DNA of 64,000 nucleotides, taken from assembly GCF_001411495.1 (NCBI RefSeq), contig NZ_CP012981.1, positions 930,001 to 994,000 of the forward strand. Direction: 5' to 3'. Both the position numbers and the translations under genes were made by a program. Of the stretch, positions 11,558 through 60,041 are shown piece by piece. Source of the stretch: Burkholderia cepacia ATCC 25416 (GTDB lineage: Bacteria; Pseudomonadota; Gammaproteobacteria; Burkholderiales; Burkholderiaceae). The notes beneath the pieces are model-generated. The model was not told the DNA's origin and did not search any database. It saw only the letters and a program-made list of their open reading frames with translations. Positions within the stretch are counted from its first letter, which is position 1. Every line of letters begins with the position of its first letter.

Positions 11558-11945
11558 TAAGGTTCCTTTATCAGGTTAGGTTGACACGAACAGCGCGAAC
11601 GCGCCGATTATACGTGCGCGAACCGTGCCGTCGAGAGTCAGACTCCGACGACACAGCGCCGAATCCTGGCCCGCGCGACGCGCCCTCCGGTATGCCGGCG
11701 GCCACCCCGCGGTACGGCGTTGCTATGATAGCGCAGCGCAAACCCAATAACGACAAGGGTTTCAAAGATTTTCATCGGTATTTCGCCGAATGAATCACGG
11801 ACTGCCCATTTTTTGACCAGCGCCAACCGGACAGGATACGCAGCGCGGTCCGCCCGTGCGCCGCCCCGTTGGCTTTTTCCAACGGCCGGACGGACGGCCC
11901 CGCGCAATCCCTTGCCAGGCTTGGCTGCCACGTTTTTTGTTTCGC
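11558..11945. promoter_or_regulatory. hup / mnmC intergenic region with hup promoter
   Basis: 388 bases between divergent genes. On the minus strand a perfect -10 TATAAT (11612-11607) with TCGACG (11634-11629) 16 bases upstream is a good sigma70 promoter for hup. On the plus strand TATGAT (11724-11729) could be the -10 for mnmC but has no convincing -35. No small gene could be supported. Confidence 0.6.
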
Positions 11946-13916
11946 ATGACCGACCGACTTGTTCCCGCCACGTTCGCCATCCGCGACGACGGCACGCTCG
12001 TGTCGCCCGAGTTCGGCGACATCTATCACAACGTCGCGGGCGCGCTCGCGCAGGCGAACTACGTGTCCGTCGCGGGCAACCGGCTGCCGGCGCGCTGGCA
12101 AGGCCGCCGCACGTTCACGATCGTCGAGACGGGGTTCGGCACGGGCGCCAACTTCCTCGCGACCTGGGCCGCGTGGCGCGAGGATCCCGCACGTTGCGAG
12201 CGGCTGCATTTCGTGTCGGTCGAGAAGCACCCGTTCTCGCGCGACGACTTGCGCAAGGCGCTTTCCCATATCGTTGCGAACACAACCATGTCGGCCGAAG
12301 CCGCGATGCTTGCCGATGCGTGGCCGACGCTCGTGCCGGGTTTGCACCGGCTCGAATTCGACGACGGGCGGGTCGTGCTCACGCTTGCATTCGGCGACGC
12401 GCGCGAGATGCTGCCGAGACTCGTCGCACGTGCCGATGCGTTTTATCTGGATGGTTTCGCGCCGGCGAAAAACCCGGACATGTGGTCGGCCGACGTGTTC
12501 CGCGCCCTCGGACGCCTCGCTGCCGAAGGCGCGACCTTCGCGACGTATTCGAGTTCGGGCGTCGTGAAACAGGCGCTCACCGACGCGGGTTTCACGTATC
12601 GCAAGGTCGACGGGTTTGCCGGCAAGTTCGTGATGCTCGTCGGCGAATACGCGCCGCGCTGGCGCGCGCGCCGGCACGAGCCGCCGCTCGCATTGCCCGT
12701 TGCGGCACGCCGCGCGATCGTGATCGGTGCGGGCCTGGCGGGCTGCGCGGTCGTCGAACGTCTCGCCGCGCGCGGCTGGGAGGTCACGCTGATCGAACGG
12801 CACGAGCGAATCGCGAGCGAGGCGTCGGGCAATCCGGCCGGCGTGTTCCATCCGCTGATGACGCGCGACGACAACGTCGCGAGCCGGCTCACGCGCGGCG
12901 GCTTCCTGCACGCGATCGCGCGCTGGCGCGCACTCGAACGCGCGGGCCATGCATTCGCGCGCAGCACGCGCGGGATGATTCATCTCGCCGAATCGGCCGA
13001 CGACTTCGCGCGGATGCGTGATGCTTTCGATGCGTTCGGCGCACCGTCCGACTACGTATCGCTGCTCGACGCCGATGCCGCGCGCGCCTATCTGAACCTG
13101 CCGGTCGCGCACGGCGGCCTGCTGTTTCCGCACGGCGGCGCCGTCTGGCCGGCCGGCCTTTGCGCGGCCCAGTGCGAGGCGGCCGGCAAGCGCGTGCGCT
13201 TGCTCGCGTCCACCGCCGTGGCACGACTCGAACGGCGGGGCGATGCATGGCATGCGCTCGACGATGCGGGCGGCACACTGGCCGAAGCGCCCGTCGTCGT
13301 GCTCGCGAATGCCGGCGATGCCGCACGCCTCGCCGGGTTGCAGCACGTCGCGCTGCAACCGGTGCGTGGCCAGCTCACGTTGCTGCCCCCCGGCAGCACG
13401 GCACCGCTGCCGTGCCCGGCGATCGGCGACGGTTACGCGGTACCGCTCGACGACGGCACGCTGCTGATCGGCGCGACGTTCGAGCCCGACGACGTTGATC
13501 CCGCGATGCGCGCGGCCGGTCACGCCGAAAACCTCGAGCGCGTGCGCCGTCTGCTGCCGGGCCTGATCGGCGACGTGCCGGATCCCGGCACGCTGCGCGG
13601 CCGCGTTGCGTTCCGCTGGGTTGTCGGCGATCGACTGCCGCTCATCGGCCCGCTCGCGGACGAAGCGGGAGCCGTCGCCAAAGCACGCGCGCTGAGCGGC
13701 GCGCAGGCGCGCGACCTGCCGCGCATGCCCGGACTCTACGGCGCATTCGGTTTCGGTTCGCGCGGCCTCGTATGGGCCGCACTCGGCGCCGAACTGATCG
13801 CATCGCAACTCGAAGGCGAGCCGTGGCCGCTCGAACGCGAACTCGCCGATGCCGTCGATCCCGCACGCTTCCTGATCCGCGCATTGCGCGCGCGCCGCGT
13901 CAGCCAGGCCGGCTGA
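11946..13916 (+). CDS. mnmC: Bifunctional tRNA 5-methylaminomethyl-2-thiouridine biosynthesis protein MnmC
   Basis: 656 residues from MTDRLVPATFAIRDDGTL; the frame extends upstream but lacks conservation there. The N-terminal methyltransferase domain (MnmC1) has ETGFGTGANFLATW and YLDGFAPAKNPDMW. The C-terminal FAD oxidoreductase (MnmC2) begins AIVIGAGLAGCAVVERLAARGW and ends PGLYGAFGFGSRGLVWA. It converts cmnm5s2U to nm5s2U (oxidase) and then to mnm5s2U (methylation) at the tRNA wobble position. It acts after MnmE-MnmG, and mnmG lies in this window at 41147. No Shine-Dalgarno is apparent. Confidence 0.95.
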   Translation: MTDRLVPATFAIRDDGTLVSPEFGDIYHNVAGALAQANYVSVAGNRLPARWQGRRTFTIVETGFGTGANFLATWAAWREDPARCERLHFVSVEKHPFSRDDLRKALSHIVANTTMSAEAAMLADAWPTLVPGLHRLEFDDGRVVLTLAFGDAREMLPRLVARADAFYLDGFAPAKNPDMWSADVFRALGRLAAEGATFATYSSSGVVKQALTDAGFTYRKVDGFAGKFVMLVGEYAPRWRARRHEPPLALPVAARRAIVIGAGLAGCAVVERLAARGWEVTLIERHERIASEASGNPAGVFHPLMTRDDNVASRLTRGGFLHAIARWRALERAGHAFARSTRGMIHLAESADDFARMRDAFDAFGAPSDYVSLLDADAARAYLNLPVAHGGLLFPHGGAVWPAGLCAAQCEAAGKRVRLLASTAVARLERRGDAWHALDDAGGTLAEAPVVVLANAGDAARLAGLQHVALQPVRGQLTLLPPGSTAPLPCPAIGDGYAVPLDDGTLLIGATFEPDDVDPAMRAAGHAENLERVRRLLPGLIGDVPDPGTLRGRVAFRWVVGDRLPLIGPLADEAGAVAKARALSGAQARDLPRMPGLYGAFGFGSRGLVWAALGAELIASQLEGEPWPLERELADAVDPARFLIRALRARRVSQAG

Positions 13917-14240
13917 CCGGCCCCCGAGCCGATCACAGTTTCCCGATTTTTTCGCGCAAGGTTATCCACTCGATGCTGTGGATAACTGCGCGGAATCCGC
14001 GCGCACTTCGTGTGCAATCACAGTGGACGTAAACTGGGCAACTCGGCACAGCTGTGAAACGGCCCGAAAGTTGCTCAATCGAAACTTCTGTGCACGAACA
14101 GCCTGTGCAACGGGTTATGGACTCTCCAACACCTTGATCCGTCGACGTAAACCGAAGTTATCCACAGAACTGTGCGCGCCTTGTTAACTTCTACTACGTA
14201 TATATACAAGTAAACCTTTGAAACCAAAGACCTAGGGGGC
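13917..14240. other. Candidate chromosomal replication origin (oriC): DnaA boxes plus AT-rich stretch
   Basis: Non-coding DNA after mnmC. DnaA boxes: TTATCCACT at 13962-13970 (plus), TTATCCACA at 13977-13985 (minus, facing the first) and TTATCCACA at 14158-14166 (plus). Several TGTGCA motifs lie between (about 14011, 14088, 14103). Directly after the last box an AT-rich stretch (about 14181-14225, with TTAACTT and TATATATAC) stands out in this GC-rich DNA and resembles a duplex-unwinding element. parS sites and parAB lie 26-31 kb away, as expected near an origin. What is not shown: GC-skew switch and origin function. A second, weaker cluster at 17031-17208 is an alternative. Confidence 0.6.
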
Positions 14241-14585: not shown

Positions 14586-16930
<2,345 letters not shown>

Positions 16931-17438
16931 AAAAATGTTTTGCAGATTACGGGGTCGACCGAGTCGCGATTCACTGAACGGCTGGCGGCCTCGATTGACG
17001 CCGAAATCGTTGCCGGTTGTCCTGAAAATCTGTGGATAACCCGATATTCCGCTGCAAAGTCAACGATCTGTGCGCGGGATAACCCGGTGGATCATTGCGG
17101 TCGGCCCGATGGCCGATCCGAACAGGAAAATGTCCCGACACCCCGCTGCGCGGGCGTTCGGCATTGCAGGCACAACGAAAAATTTTGGTTATCCAGTGAT
17201 TTTCCACAGAATGAAGGGGATAACTTAGCTGTGCGATTTTCCGCTCTCGCTTAGAATGTCGGCTTTGCGGACACCGGAACGATGCGTGTCTTACCGGTCG
17301 CCGCGAACGCGACCGCCGCGTGTGCCCTCGCGACGGCCGTGCTGACGCACTCGCAAGAGCGTGTCTGTTTTGAGATAGACATTCGATCTCCACACTACGG
17401 CCGCTCGGCAAACCGGGCGGCGGCAAAGCGAAAAGACT
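16931..17438. other. Long intergenic region with a second DnaA-box group
   Basis: 508 non-coding bases. DnaA-like boxes: TTATCCACA on the minus strand at 17031-17039 (perfect), TTATCCAGT at 17189-17197 and TTTTCCACA at 17200-17208 on the plus strand. GGGATAAC half-matches occur near 17076 and 17217. It also has to contain the promoter of the marR-like gene. It is less AT-rich than the candidate origin at 13917 but could be part of an extended origin or a DnaA-titration site. Confidence 0.5.
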
Positions 17439-43117: not shown

Positions 43118-43800
43118 CGGCGCGTCGCGCGCCGGCGGTTAATCGGGACGTACTGGAACAGATGCTCGTCGAAGGCACGACGGCGCTCGACCTTATGCTG
43201 ACGGATACACAACGCAACCAGCTGCTCGACTACGTCGCGCTGCTCGGCAAGTGGAACGCGGTCTACAACCTGACCGCGATCCGCGACCCGAAGCAGATGC
43301 TGATCCAGCACATCCTCGATTCGCTTTCCATCGTTCCGCATCTGCGTGGCCGTGCATCAGCCCGCGTGCTCGACGTCGGCTCGGGTGGTGGATTGCCCGG
43401 TATCGTGCTGGCGATCGTCGAGCCGGATTGGCAGATCACGCTGAACGATATCGTGCAGAAGAAGTCTGCATTCCAGACCCAGATGCGTGCGGAGCTGAAG
43501 CTCGCGAACCTGTCGGTGGTCACGGGGCGGGTCGAATCGCTGCAGCCGGGTGTCGAAGTGCCGGAAAAATTCGACATGATCGTATCCCGCGCTTTCGCGG
43601 ATCTGTCCGACTTCGTTAAACTTGCTCGACACCTGGTTGCGCCGGGCGGATCGATCTGGGCAATGAAGGGCGTTCATCCGGACGACGAGATTGCGCGGTT
43701 GCCGGAAGGCAGCCGCGTGAAGCAGACGATACGGCTGGCGGTGCCGTTGCTCGATGCCGAACGGCATCTGATCGAAGTGGCCGTCGACGAAGCGAATTGA
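43114..43800 (+). CDS. rsmG: 16S rRNA (guanine527-N7)-methyltransferase RsmG (GidB)
   Basis: 228 residues. [26 protein letters not shown] is the RsmG N-terminal signature, followed by the SAM-binding motif [19 protein letters not shown] and later [19 protein letters not shown]. It methylates G527 of 16S rRNA; loss in other bacteria gives low-level streptomycin resistance. It is coupled to mnmG by an ATGA overlap and followed 56 bases later by parA. Confidence 0.96.
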
Positions 43801-43856
43801 AGGGCCGGCGCGCGATGGCGCGCCGTTTGTTTGAAGGTAAAGGGAACACACCAACG

Positions 43857-44636
43857 ATGGCAAAGATCTTCTGCGTTGCGAACCAGAAGGGGGGCGTCGG
43901 CAAGACGACGACATCGGTCAATCTCGCCGCAAGCCTTGCAGCGCAGGAGCAACGAGTCCTGCTGATCGATCTCGACCCTCAGGGTAACGCGACGATGGGC
44001 AGCGGGATCGACAAGGCTGCTTGCGAAGCGACCGTGTACGAGGTGCTGGTCGACGGCGTGTCGGTGACCGACGCGCGCATCCGGCCGGACGGCGTCACCT
44101 ACGACGTGCTACCCGCGAACCGCGAGCTGTCCGGTGCCGAGATCGAACTGATCAGCATCGACAACCGCGAGCGCCGGCTGAAGGCCGCGCTCGAGCACGT
44201 GGCCGACGACTACGATTTCGTGCTGATCGATTGCCCGCCGACGCTGTCGCTGCTGACGCTGAACGGCTTGTGCGCGGCGCACGGCGTCGTGATCCCCATG
44301 CAGTGCGAATACTTTGCACTGGAGGGGTTGTCGGACCTCGTCAACACGATCAAGCAGGTTCACGCGAACATGAACCGCGACCTGAAGATCATCGGCTTGC
44401 TGCGTGTGATGTTCGATCCGCGCATCACGCTGCAGCAGCAAGTCTCCGATCAACTGAAAGCGCACTTCGGCGACAAGGTGTTCGACGCGGTGATTCCGCG
44501 CAACGTGCGCCTGGCGGAAGCGCCGAGTTACGGGCTGCCGGGCGTCGTGTTCGACCGCAGCTCGCGCGGTGCGCAAGCGTATCTCCAGTTCGGTGCCGAG
44601 ATGATCGACCGCGTTCGCGCGTTCGAGGTGTCGTGA
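43857..44636 (+). CDS. parA: Chromosome-partitioning ATPase ParA (Soj)
   Basis: 259 residues from MAKIFCVANQKGGVGKTTTSVNLAASL, the deviant Walker A of ParA/MinD ATPases. Then LIDLDPQGNATMG, FVLIDCPPTLSLLTLNGL and RNVRLAEAPSYGLP. It lacks the N-terminal helix-turn-helix of plasmid type Ia ParA, so it is the chromosomal Soj type. It uses ATP-dependent nucleoid binding to move ParB-parS complexes. The start is placed at the conserved MAKIF; 20 more codons are open upstream. Confidence 0.97.
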   Translation: MAKIFCVANQKGGVGKTTTSVNLAASLAAQEQRVLLIDLDPQGNATMGSGIDKAACEATVYEVLVDGVSVTDARIRPDGVTYDVLPANRELSGAEIELISIDNRERRLKAALEHVADDYDFVLIDCPPTLSLLTLNGLCAAHGVVIPMQCEYFALEGLSDLVNTIKQVHANMNRDLKIIGLLRVMFDPRITLQQQVSDQLKAHFGDKVFDAVIPRNVRLAEAPSYGLPGVVFDRSSRGAQAYLQFGAEMIDRVRAFEVS

Positions 44637-44667
44637 TCCGGACATGAGCGAAGCGAGGAAGAAAGAC

Positions 44668-45561
44668 ATGAACGCGGTACCAAAGAAGAAGGGCTTGGGA
44701 CGTGGCCTCGAAGCGCTGCTCGGCGGCAGTGCCGATATCACCGAAGCGGTGAAGATCGAAGGGGCACCGAACACGCTCGCGCTCGGCAAGCTGCAGGCCG
44801 GCAAGTACCAGCCGCGGACGCGGATGGACGAAGGCAGCCTGCAGGAGCTCGCGGCGAGCATTCGCGCACAGGGCGTGATGCAGCCGATCCTGGTACGGCC
44901 CATTTCGTCAGACAAATACGAGATCATCGCGGGCGAGCGCCGTTTCCGCGCGGCACGCCTGGCGGGCCTCGATGAAGTGCCGGTGCTCGTGAAGGATGTG
45001 TCCGACCAGGCCGCCGCGGCGATGGCGCTGATCGAGAACATCCAGCGCGAGGATCTGAACCCGCTCGAAGAGGCGCACGGTATCCAGCGCCTGCTCGACG
45101 AGTTCGGTTTCACGCACGAACAGGCGGCCGAATCGGTCGGCCGTTCGCGCAGCGCGGTGTCGAACCTGCTGCGCCTGCTGAACCTGGCTTCGCCGGTGCA
45201 GACGATGCTGCTGGCCGGTGATCTCGACATGGGGCATGCGCGCGCGCTGCTCGCCGTCGATGCGGCCACGCAGATCACGCTCGCCCATCAGGTCGTCAAC
45301 AAGCGCATGTCGGTGCGGGAGACCGAGAAGCTCGTCACGCACACGACGAAGGAAGCGCCGGCCGTGAAGGCGCGCGCGAAGGACGACGGCGGGCGCGATA
45401 CGCGCCGTCTCGAGGAGGAGTTGTCCGACCTGCTCGCGTCGACGGTGAAGATCAAGCTCGGCCGCCGAGGACGAGGGCAGGTCACGATCGACTTCGGCAA
45501 CCTCGACGCGCTCGAGGGCATTCTCGTGCGGCTGCGCGGCAACGTCGCGACCGAAGAGTAA
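44668..45561 (+). CDS. parB: Chromosome-partitioning protein ParB (Spo0J)
   Basis: 297 residues from MNAVPKKKGLGRGLEALLGG (a start at 44644 would add eight). The CTP-binding ParB/Srx domain has LQAGKYQPRTRMDEGSLQEL and EIIAGERRFRAARLAG (the GERRxR motif), with ENIQREDLNPLEEA. The helix-turn-helix is FTHEQAAESVGRSRSAVSNLLRLL, and the C-terminal dimer domain is present. It binds the parS sites at 40599, 40901 and 42565 and spreads from them. AGGA eight bases upstream supports the start at 44668. Confidence 0.97.
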   Translation: MNAVPKKKGLGRGLEALLGGSADITEAVKIEGAPNTLALGKLQAGKYQPRTRMDEGSLQELAASIRAQGVMQPILVRPISSDKYEIIAGERRFRAARLAGLDEVPVLVKDVSDQAAAAMALIENIQREDLNPLEEAHGIQRLLDEFGFTHEQAAESVGRSRSAVSNLLRLLNLASPVQTMLLAGDLDMGHARALLAVDAATQITLAHQVVNKRMSVRETEKLVTHTTKEAPAVKARAKDDGGRDTRRLEEELSDLLASTVKIKLGRRGRGQVTIDFGNLDALEGILVRLRGNVATEE

Positions 45562-59587: not shown

Positions 59588-60041
59588 ACGCAAGCGCTGT
59601 CATGCTGCACTGCGGGATGACAGCGTTTCGTTTTCGGCGCTAAACAGGGCGCAACCCCGCACCGGTTGCCGATTCAGTGCTTGTCAAGACTTGACTTATA
59701 CACATTTTCCTCGTTGCAGCGCGGTAGAGCCCTGTGTCGGTCAAATTGCCTCGCTATGGTTCGGTAATTTGAATAGCAGCCTTATGGAATAAGGCTCCGC
59801 GGGGGACCGCCACAAACGGCGAAAATCAGCGGAAAGCGCGGCCCCGCGTGCGTTGCGGCCCGTGAGCGGCGAGTTCTCAACAAAGTTATCCACAGGCTGG
59901 GCAGGGTATACGGCGATTCCTAATGCGAATCCAAAACTTAGCGCCGAATCTGACGTTTTACTTTAAGTCCGCCGCCACGATGCGGGCGCGGATGCCGGCC
60001 GCCCGTCTCGATGCGGTGCATGCCGCAGCCGGAGCGCCGCG
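59588..60041. other. hemE-priA intergenic region with inverted repeat and a DnaA box
   Basis: 454 bases with no supported gene. Inverted repeat AGCCTTAT (59778-59785) gga ATAAGGCT (59789-59796) without a T run. A perfect DnaA box TTATCCACA lies at 59886-59894. The priA promoter should be in the second half; no strong promoter was picked. Confidence 0.5.

Follow-up and report, generated by a model that had tools for sequence, protein, structure and literature searches.

Duplicated oriC-like modules in Burkholderia and a probable unwinding core of the chromosome 1 origin between mnmC and a kefB-like gene

The window, by which we mean the whole stretch of 64,000 nucleotides analysed in this study, covers C1:930,001-994,000 of the 3.79 Mb contig C1 of Burkholderia cepacia ATCC 25416, whose genome has four contigs. 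The features under discussion are collected in Table 1, in which the gene names mnmC, kefB-like and ybdK-like are our own assignments, mnmC also being the name used in an earlier sequence-only reading of this DNA. That reading had placed a candidate replication origin of chromosome 1 in a gene-free stretch beside mnmC, and the stretch does sit between the end of mnmC at 13916 and the start of the kefB-like gene, which is 14547, or 14588 if the next ATG is used. Further to the right, at 41.1-45.6 kb, lie genes that we take by eye from their sequences to be mnmG, rsmG, parA and parB; the claimed proximity of parAB is borne out, as these presumed partition genes are located about 30-31 kb from the unit beside mnmC (module A, at site A). 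Homologues of parA and parB were also observed near the modules of two other genomes, G514 and G416.

Table 1. Features of the mnmC-marR region and the partition genes, in window coordinates
Feature	Position	Strand	Basis or remark
mnmC, left neighbour of module A	11856-13916	+	ORF; homologue adjoins the module in 44 loci
DnaA box 1, TTATCCACT (1 mismatch)	13962-13970	+	left arm of the inverted pair of module A
DnaA box 2, TTATCCACA	13977-13985	-	right arm of the inverted pair of module A
Four GTWWAC sites (14029, 14147, 14183, 14210)	14029-14215	unstranded	motif scan
Two CTGTGCA 7-mers (14088, 14103)	14088-14109	+	motif scan
DnaA box 3, TTATCCACA	14158-14166	+	opens the core signature box-17N-GTTAACTNNNACTAC
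AT-rich patch, 71% AT, probable unwinding element	14181-14225	unstranded	composition
GTTAACT	14184-14190	+	17 bases past TTATCCAC (box 3)
CTTCTACTA, three trio-like triplets, middle A on the opposite strand	14188-14196	+	21 bases past box 3
kefB-like antiporter gene, between A and B	14588-15800	+	ORF
ybdK-like carboxylate-amine ligase gene, between A and B	15815-16930	+	ORF
Site B, degenerate second module in the ybdK-marR gap	17022-17245	-	sequence reading
parA-parB, origin-proximal partition genes	43797-45561	+	read by eye

Module A is a rigid unit of about 250 bp, in which two inverted boxes 6 bp apart are followed 195-196 bp further on by a third box, and then by 17 bp, GTTAACTNNNACTAC and AT-rich DNA. 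When rechecked on the sequence, the three DnaA boxes have the positions and orientations that had been reported, the first two facing each other across the 6-base gap. The whole window holds 11 DnaA boxes at no more than one mismatch, as against a mean of 2.6 in dinucleotide shuffles, and three boxes within 214 bp were found in 0 of 300 such shuffles, whereas those of module A span 205 bp; the cluster is therefore beyond chance. Across the 8.6 Mb genome there are 25 copies of the exact box TTATCCACA, two of which belong to module A. The repeated TGTGCA motifs were likewise recovered near the boxes, at 14011, 14089 and 14104, the latter two reading CTGTGCA. The AT-rich patch had been called striking, and rightly so, since the window as a whole is only 34% AT and its most AT-rich 45-mer, 14184-14228, is found here beside box 3. 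The four GTWWAC sites in the table are drawn from only ten in the window. With regard to the traits of the published BUS, module A displays three trio-like triplets with a middle adenine, with the box 21 bp from them instead of 0-16 bp and no box at up to two mismatches in between. We therefore describe module A as BUS-like rather than as a BUS member, its spacer of 21 exceeding the 16 of the published search.

A search of the same genome with 14,100-14,240 returned a second match at C1:895,666-895,693, which belongs to a second module (module C) at C1:895,676-895,715 on the minus strand, 48 kb from A and beside a tRNA-Val(GAC) gene. It repeats the layout of two inverted boxes 6 bases apart, followed by a third box and then TTGTTAACTATCACTACGTATATATAC, such that two complete modules reside on one replicon; its trio part is poorer, with only two trio-like triplets in a row and the second triplet broken. 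Local alignment of A with C gives a score of 83, where the highest of 500 shuffles reached 44. With the searched core removed, the score of the upstream parts is 44, where the shuffles average 23.2 and reach 51 (at least one of the 500 being higher), so the upstream relation of A and C is moderate in this one genome. In our judgement, the geometry shared across genomes is stronger evidence of their kinship than this upstream alignment. The sequence-only reading had thus picked out a real module, but in treating it as a single candidate origin it overlooked the duplicate 48 kb away and the presence of at least two modules in every one of the 65 genomes of the genus.

That distribution was obtained with the pattern TTATCCAC-(8 to 26)-GTTAACTNNNACTAC, which has an exact match in 65/65 genus genomes and two in 52/65. 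Although gaps of 8-26 were allowed, the gap was exactly 17 in all 117 exact matches; with it fixed at 17 and up to three mismatches allowed, all 65 genomes carry at least two modules, each genome having two at no more than two mismatches; the reversed-pattern control of this search gave 2 matches in the same 65. The commonest arrangement is an inverted pair 40.8-67.1 kb apart on one contig (42/65), followed by copies on different contigs (14/65), a facing pair about 2.9 kb apart (5/65), a same-strand pair 31-35 kb apart (3/65) and three copies on one contig (1/65). The survey was extended to 249 genomes of the family at up to three mismatches, where the reversed control gave 26 matches in 25 genomes, so that single weak matches may be due to chance. 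At least two modules were found in 31/31 genomes of Burkholderia (g1), in 29/29 of Paraburkholderia (g6), which have two to four, and in 11/11, 3/3 and 3/3 of g153, g142 and g144, respectively. Caballeronia (g3) has at least two in 26/30, with three genomes having one and one having none; g5 harbors exactly one module in 28/30, and g2, g4 and g152 mostly none. Plain DNA similarity was a weak means of finding relatives, reaching only 8 of 300 genomes of the order. In Burkholderia and its near relatives, the modules lie about 3-260 kb apart on the main chromosome.

The modules occupy a limited set of places. Site A is shared by several genera, and among the C-type loci the tRNA-Val lies inside the fetched stretch in 24/29 and is absent from it in 5/29. 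The other neighbourhoods were named by eye and are assumptions of ours: we take extra copies to lie near a sigma-factor-like gene in G312, G325 and G338, near a GyrI-like gene in Paraburkholderia (locus E), in a DUF2242/transglycosylase/EamA-like neighbourhood (locus F), and presumably near glmS in G570, a neighbourhood common to G386. Some individual cases are recorded here as observations. G314, G318 and G333 carry three or four signatures, and in G318 and G333 one of them has TTTATTGACTATTACTAC and looks like a further decayed copy. Two tandem core signatures lie 391 bases apart, with a shorter spacer, at L009 (G007:C1, from another family of the order), and two lie 367 bases apart in G367 (L315), near mnmC- and ybdK-like genes. 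Among the matches listed, one exact match (L208) comes from a contig labelled as an Acidobacteriaceae metagenome bin, which is likely mis-binned Burkholderia-type DNA.

The modules share a fixed geometry. When the best inverted pair was sought in 55 modules with gaps of 0-12 allowed, the 6-base gap was best in 51, the exceptions being two modules of the sigma-factor locus and two of the glmS locus. The pair is located at -195/-196, again with the 6-base gap, in 25/25 A modules and at -184/-185 in the 26 other modules that have a pair, while several modules among 20 further loci show nothing better than a weak pair. A tree of 73 modules sorts the copies largely by locus, not by genome: A copies of several genera fall together with a local support of 0.89 (other branches being weaker), B copies of Burkholderia and Caballeronia with 0.83, and C, E and F copies mostly by locus, with the exception of F_L133, D_L120, one Mycetohabitans-like B copy and two E copies, which are placed elsewhere. 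This grouping agrees with the modules being old duplicates which have been evolving separately. Mean identity across 27 C loci is 0.85-0.95 in blocks of 60 bases between -220 and +80, falling to 0.63 toward the tRNA side and to 0.68-0.76 beyond +140, so that C stands out as an island of conservation; the tRNA itself is conserved. Module A is also conserved, but it is not an isolated island of conservation, since the DNA downstream of it is conserved as well (0.87-0.96).

Site B, about 3 kb to the right of A, is degenerate in this genome. It keeps a box TTATCCACA (17031-17039, minus strand) and a weak box pair, has lost GTTAACTNNNACTAC, and also lacks the AT-rich patch; the cluster is probably a remnant that would still bind DnaA. 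Relatives harbor intact modules at the B locus, for example at L121, L122, L138 and L306, and among the loci read they were seen in G314, G318, G333, G336, G388, G119 and G401; in several relatives A and B are both intact and face each other about 3 kb apart. Two g5 modules were read (G432 and G571); they occupy site B and lack the canonical box pair, for which reason B may be the older of the two sites, a suggestion that rests on these two genomes. Taken together, A and B form two box clusters with genes between them, around kefB-ybdK, of which B is coreless here.

The absence of a nearby dnaA, from which an origin separate from that gene had been proposed, is confirmed: the sole match to the DnaA model above cut-off lies at C1:843253-844815, about 99-101 kb to the left of the site, and three further matches are all under the cut-off. 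A position beside dnaA, common for an oriC although not required, is thus not found for module A, and in the region read upstream of dnaA there is one box and the module is absent. Between dnaA and module C, the stretch G000:C1:850001-890000 (L017, L018) has a GC content of 0.59 and 0.57 compared with about 0.67, probably represents islands, and disturbs the skew left of C. Another group of DnaA boxes was noticed within the window at 59696, 59886 and 60626, two of them exact and one with 1 mismatch, surrounding what we take by eye to be the end of a hemE-like gene and the start of a priA-like gene; the core pattern does not recur at this place. This hemE-like group recalls the putative origin beside hemE in Ralstonia pickettii (Gao 2015, PMC4403523).

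GC skew was followed in 40 stretches of 20 kb sampled from C1, being negative in 12/12 at 100-930 kb, positive in 17/17 at 994-2820 kb and negative in 11/11 at 2850-3790 kb. The two switches lie opposite each other on the 3.79 Mb replicon, which places the terminus side near 2.83 Mb, facing the window. Over the contiguous 830-1054 kb, the raw cumulative minimum falls at C1:946,789 (window 16,789), between A and B and only about 0.25 kb from B in this genome. Five genomes were compared, namely this one and four chosen because both modules sit inside one long contig, and in 5/5 the raw minimum lies 2.2-2.6 kb to the right of box 3; in 5/5, too, plus-strand coding rises from 25-34% between C and A to 80-89% right of A. 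Cumulative skew had been offered as a check by the sequence-only reading, with a minimum at the 17.0 kb cluster named as speaking against site A. The outcome is divided, as the switch does occur in the window with the terminus opposite, yet the raw minimum is nearer to that very cluster.

A codon-normalised score, which assigns 291 of 412 single genes correctly, points strongly leftward for mnmC and rightward for marR, and is near zero for ybdK and near zero or slightly rightward for kefB, indicating that the switch lies somewhere in 13.9-17.4 kb. Gene calls for the strand bias were made by a simple codon-position script, and as the minus-strand ORF that it chose over ybdK in G356 and G332 is probably false, ybdK was dropped from that C-A comparison. 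The strand switch with the terminus opposite is therefore established at a resolution of about 3.5 kb, which does not separate A from B. The skew, the coding-strand switch and a dnaA gene that lies about 99 kb off without a module argue that the window holds the origin region, apart from dnaA. An origin at dnaA is ruled out by the skew and by the absence of a module there, and module C as the main origin is ruled out because none of the five genomes has a skew minimum there. The proposal of an origin in the mnmC gap thus stands as regards a main-chromosome origin in this region away from dnaA; at the resolution of the composition data, the site may be A or B.

We consider it probable that 13,962-14,230 is the unwinding core of the DnaA-dependent origin of the main chromosome, and that A is one of several old oriC duplicates of which an extra copy has been selectively kept. 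Against A as the core, the raw skew minimum is nearer B, the codon-normalised score assigns neither kefB nor ybdK, the single module of the g5 genomes G432 and G571 is at B, the alignment of A with C beyond the core is moderate in this genome, and the published trio rule is followed incompletely. The mechanism that we propose draws on sequence anatomy, on conservation and on the switch in composition. The inverted pair and box 3 of module A would be bound by DnaA, which would extend from box 3 over GTTAACT and the three trio-like triplets at 14,188-14,196; the AT-rich patch at 14,181-14,225 would then open, and the helicase would be loaded there. Module A, or the A-B region, would serve as the main start, and selection would maintain the extra copy, whose most likely function is that of a weak or back-up origin or of a regulator that binds DnaA.

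As to the role of the extra copies, we hold only tentatively, as a reading that could well be wrong, that C and the others serve as sites of DnaA titration or of regulation, derived from an origin and acting like datA or DARS. The boxes of C are conserved, no skew switch occurs at C, and its second trio-like triplet is broken here, all of which agree with such a role; on the other hand, GTTAACT, ACTACGTATATATA and the AT-rich part are conserved in C, though a titration site would not need them. The full layout of C, conserved across 27 loci, could instead point to a second origin on the same chromosome, used in part of the cells while A acts as the main one, which we regard as possible but rather unlikely. 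The codon-normalised bias favors it in 4/5 Burkholderia genomes, being weak in the C-side half of the C-A interval and strong in the A-side half, yet in the fifth genome (G361) the bias beside C is clear, 20-kb stretches with a score near zero also occur elsewhere with some frequency (4 of 29 far from the origin were below 0.5), a skew minimum is absent at C in 5/5, and C has only two trio-like triplets in a row here. In the Paraburkholderia-type genomes G514 and G416, where copy F lies about 205 kb from A, a raw-skew shoulder ends near the midpoint and overlaps a flagellar-looking gene cluster. In G514 the normalised bias is null over the half of the F-A interval next to F and negative over the half next to A, as firing of an extra copy would predict, but G416 contradicts it after codon normalisation, and the shoulder of G514 may stem from the flagellar-like cluster at 100-140 kb. 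The hints of firing are thus weak and in conflict.

In its most general form, this reading would have Burkholderia and its near relatives keep at least two DnaA-dependent origins in working order: the principal one would be at mnmC-ybdK, and the other, firing in part of the cells, would lie 30-260 kb off. We think this proposition unlikely on present evidence. The textbook rule for bacteria is one origin per chromosome; if the proposition were true, dual origins would be the normal and ancient state in the Burkholderia clade.

It is improbable, in our view, that the true start is B at 17.0 kb, with A as an accessory DnaA-binding site in a bipartite origin around kefB-ybdK. The skew minimum close to B, found on the same side of box 3 in all five genomes, the position of the only module of the two g5 genomes examined, and the relatives with intact facing A and B would all suit it. 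However, B lacks the GTTAACT/trio part and the AT-rich patch here whereas A is intact, and the clearly leftward mnmC and slightly rightward kefB favor a switch at A, within the single-gene accuracy given above (291/412). We regard it as very improbable that C is no more than a relic left where an origin used to lie: the state of B in this genome shows that modules can decay, but the C blocks stand at 0.85-0.95 against 0.63-0.76 beside them in 27 rows, and 0/65 genus genomes have fewer than two modules.

Preferring A as the core, with an extra copy under selection, we see two respects in which these data are of use. The occurrence of at least two oriC modules at mostly fixed loci in 65/65 genomes makes it testable in natural cells which of them fires, what the other does and why it is kept. 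They also give a precise sequence address for the chromosome 1 origin, the exact place of which was left uncertain, in the accessible part of the account, when Du et al. 2016 (PMC4948915) located the oriC region of Burkholderia cenocepacia J2315. A chromosome 1 origin region with two DnaA-box clusters has already been published. In the literature searched, mostly outside the subscription journals, we found no description of duplicated oriC modules in Burkholderia. Marker-frequency data exist for Burkholderia strains (PMC13342612), and two origins are not discussed in the available portion of that paper.

With reference to known systems, the oriC of B. cenocepacia J2315 (PMC4948915) resembles the present region in its DnaA boxes, CTGTGCA 7-mers, AT-rich block and nearby parAB; it differs in that the accessible part of the account does not contain two copies of one module, a fixed geometry or a genus-wide spread. 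Methylation at CACAG and GTWWAC is described, in the available portion of PMC7364216, for the origins of B. cenocepacia, and sites of both motifs are dense in the region of module A, the likeness being one of motif sites only. The BUS (PMC8287927, in the part available) shares with module A the DnaA box, a spacer, three trio-like triplets and AT-rich DNA, and differs in its spacer limit of 16 as against 21 in A and from C in that C has only two triplets in a row. Two box clusters with genes between them also characterise the bipartite origins of Bacillus subtilis and Helicobacter pylori cited in PMC4403523, but in our case dnaA is not among the intervening genes, and each half has a full core in relatives. 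The Ori-Finder 2022 paper (PMC10225481) cites a strain of Vibrio cholerae whose single chromosome has two origins. Gao 2015 (PMC4403523) describes putative double origins, including those of Ralstonia pickettii 12D at the hemE and dnaA loci. They resemble our case in having two oriC-like places on one chromosome; they are, however, single-strain predictions from box counts and skew, whereas homologous modules at named loci were found here in 65/65 genomes.
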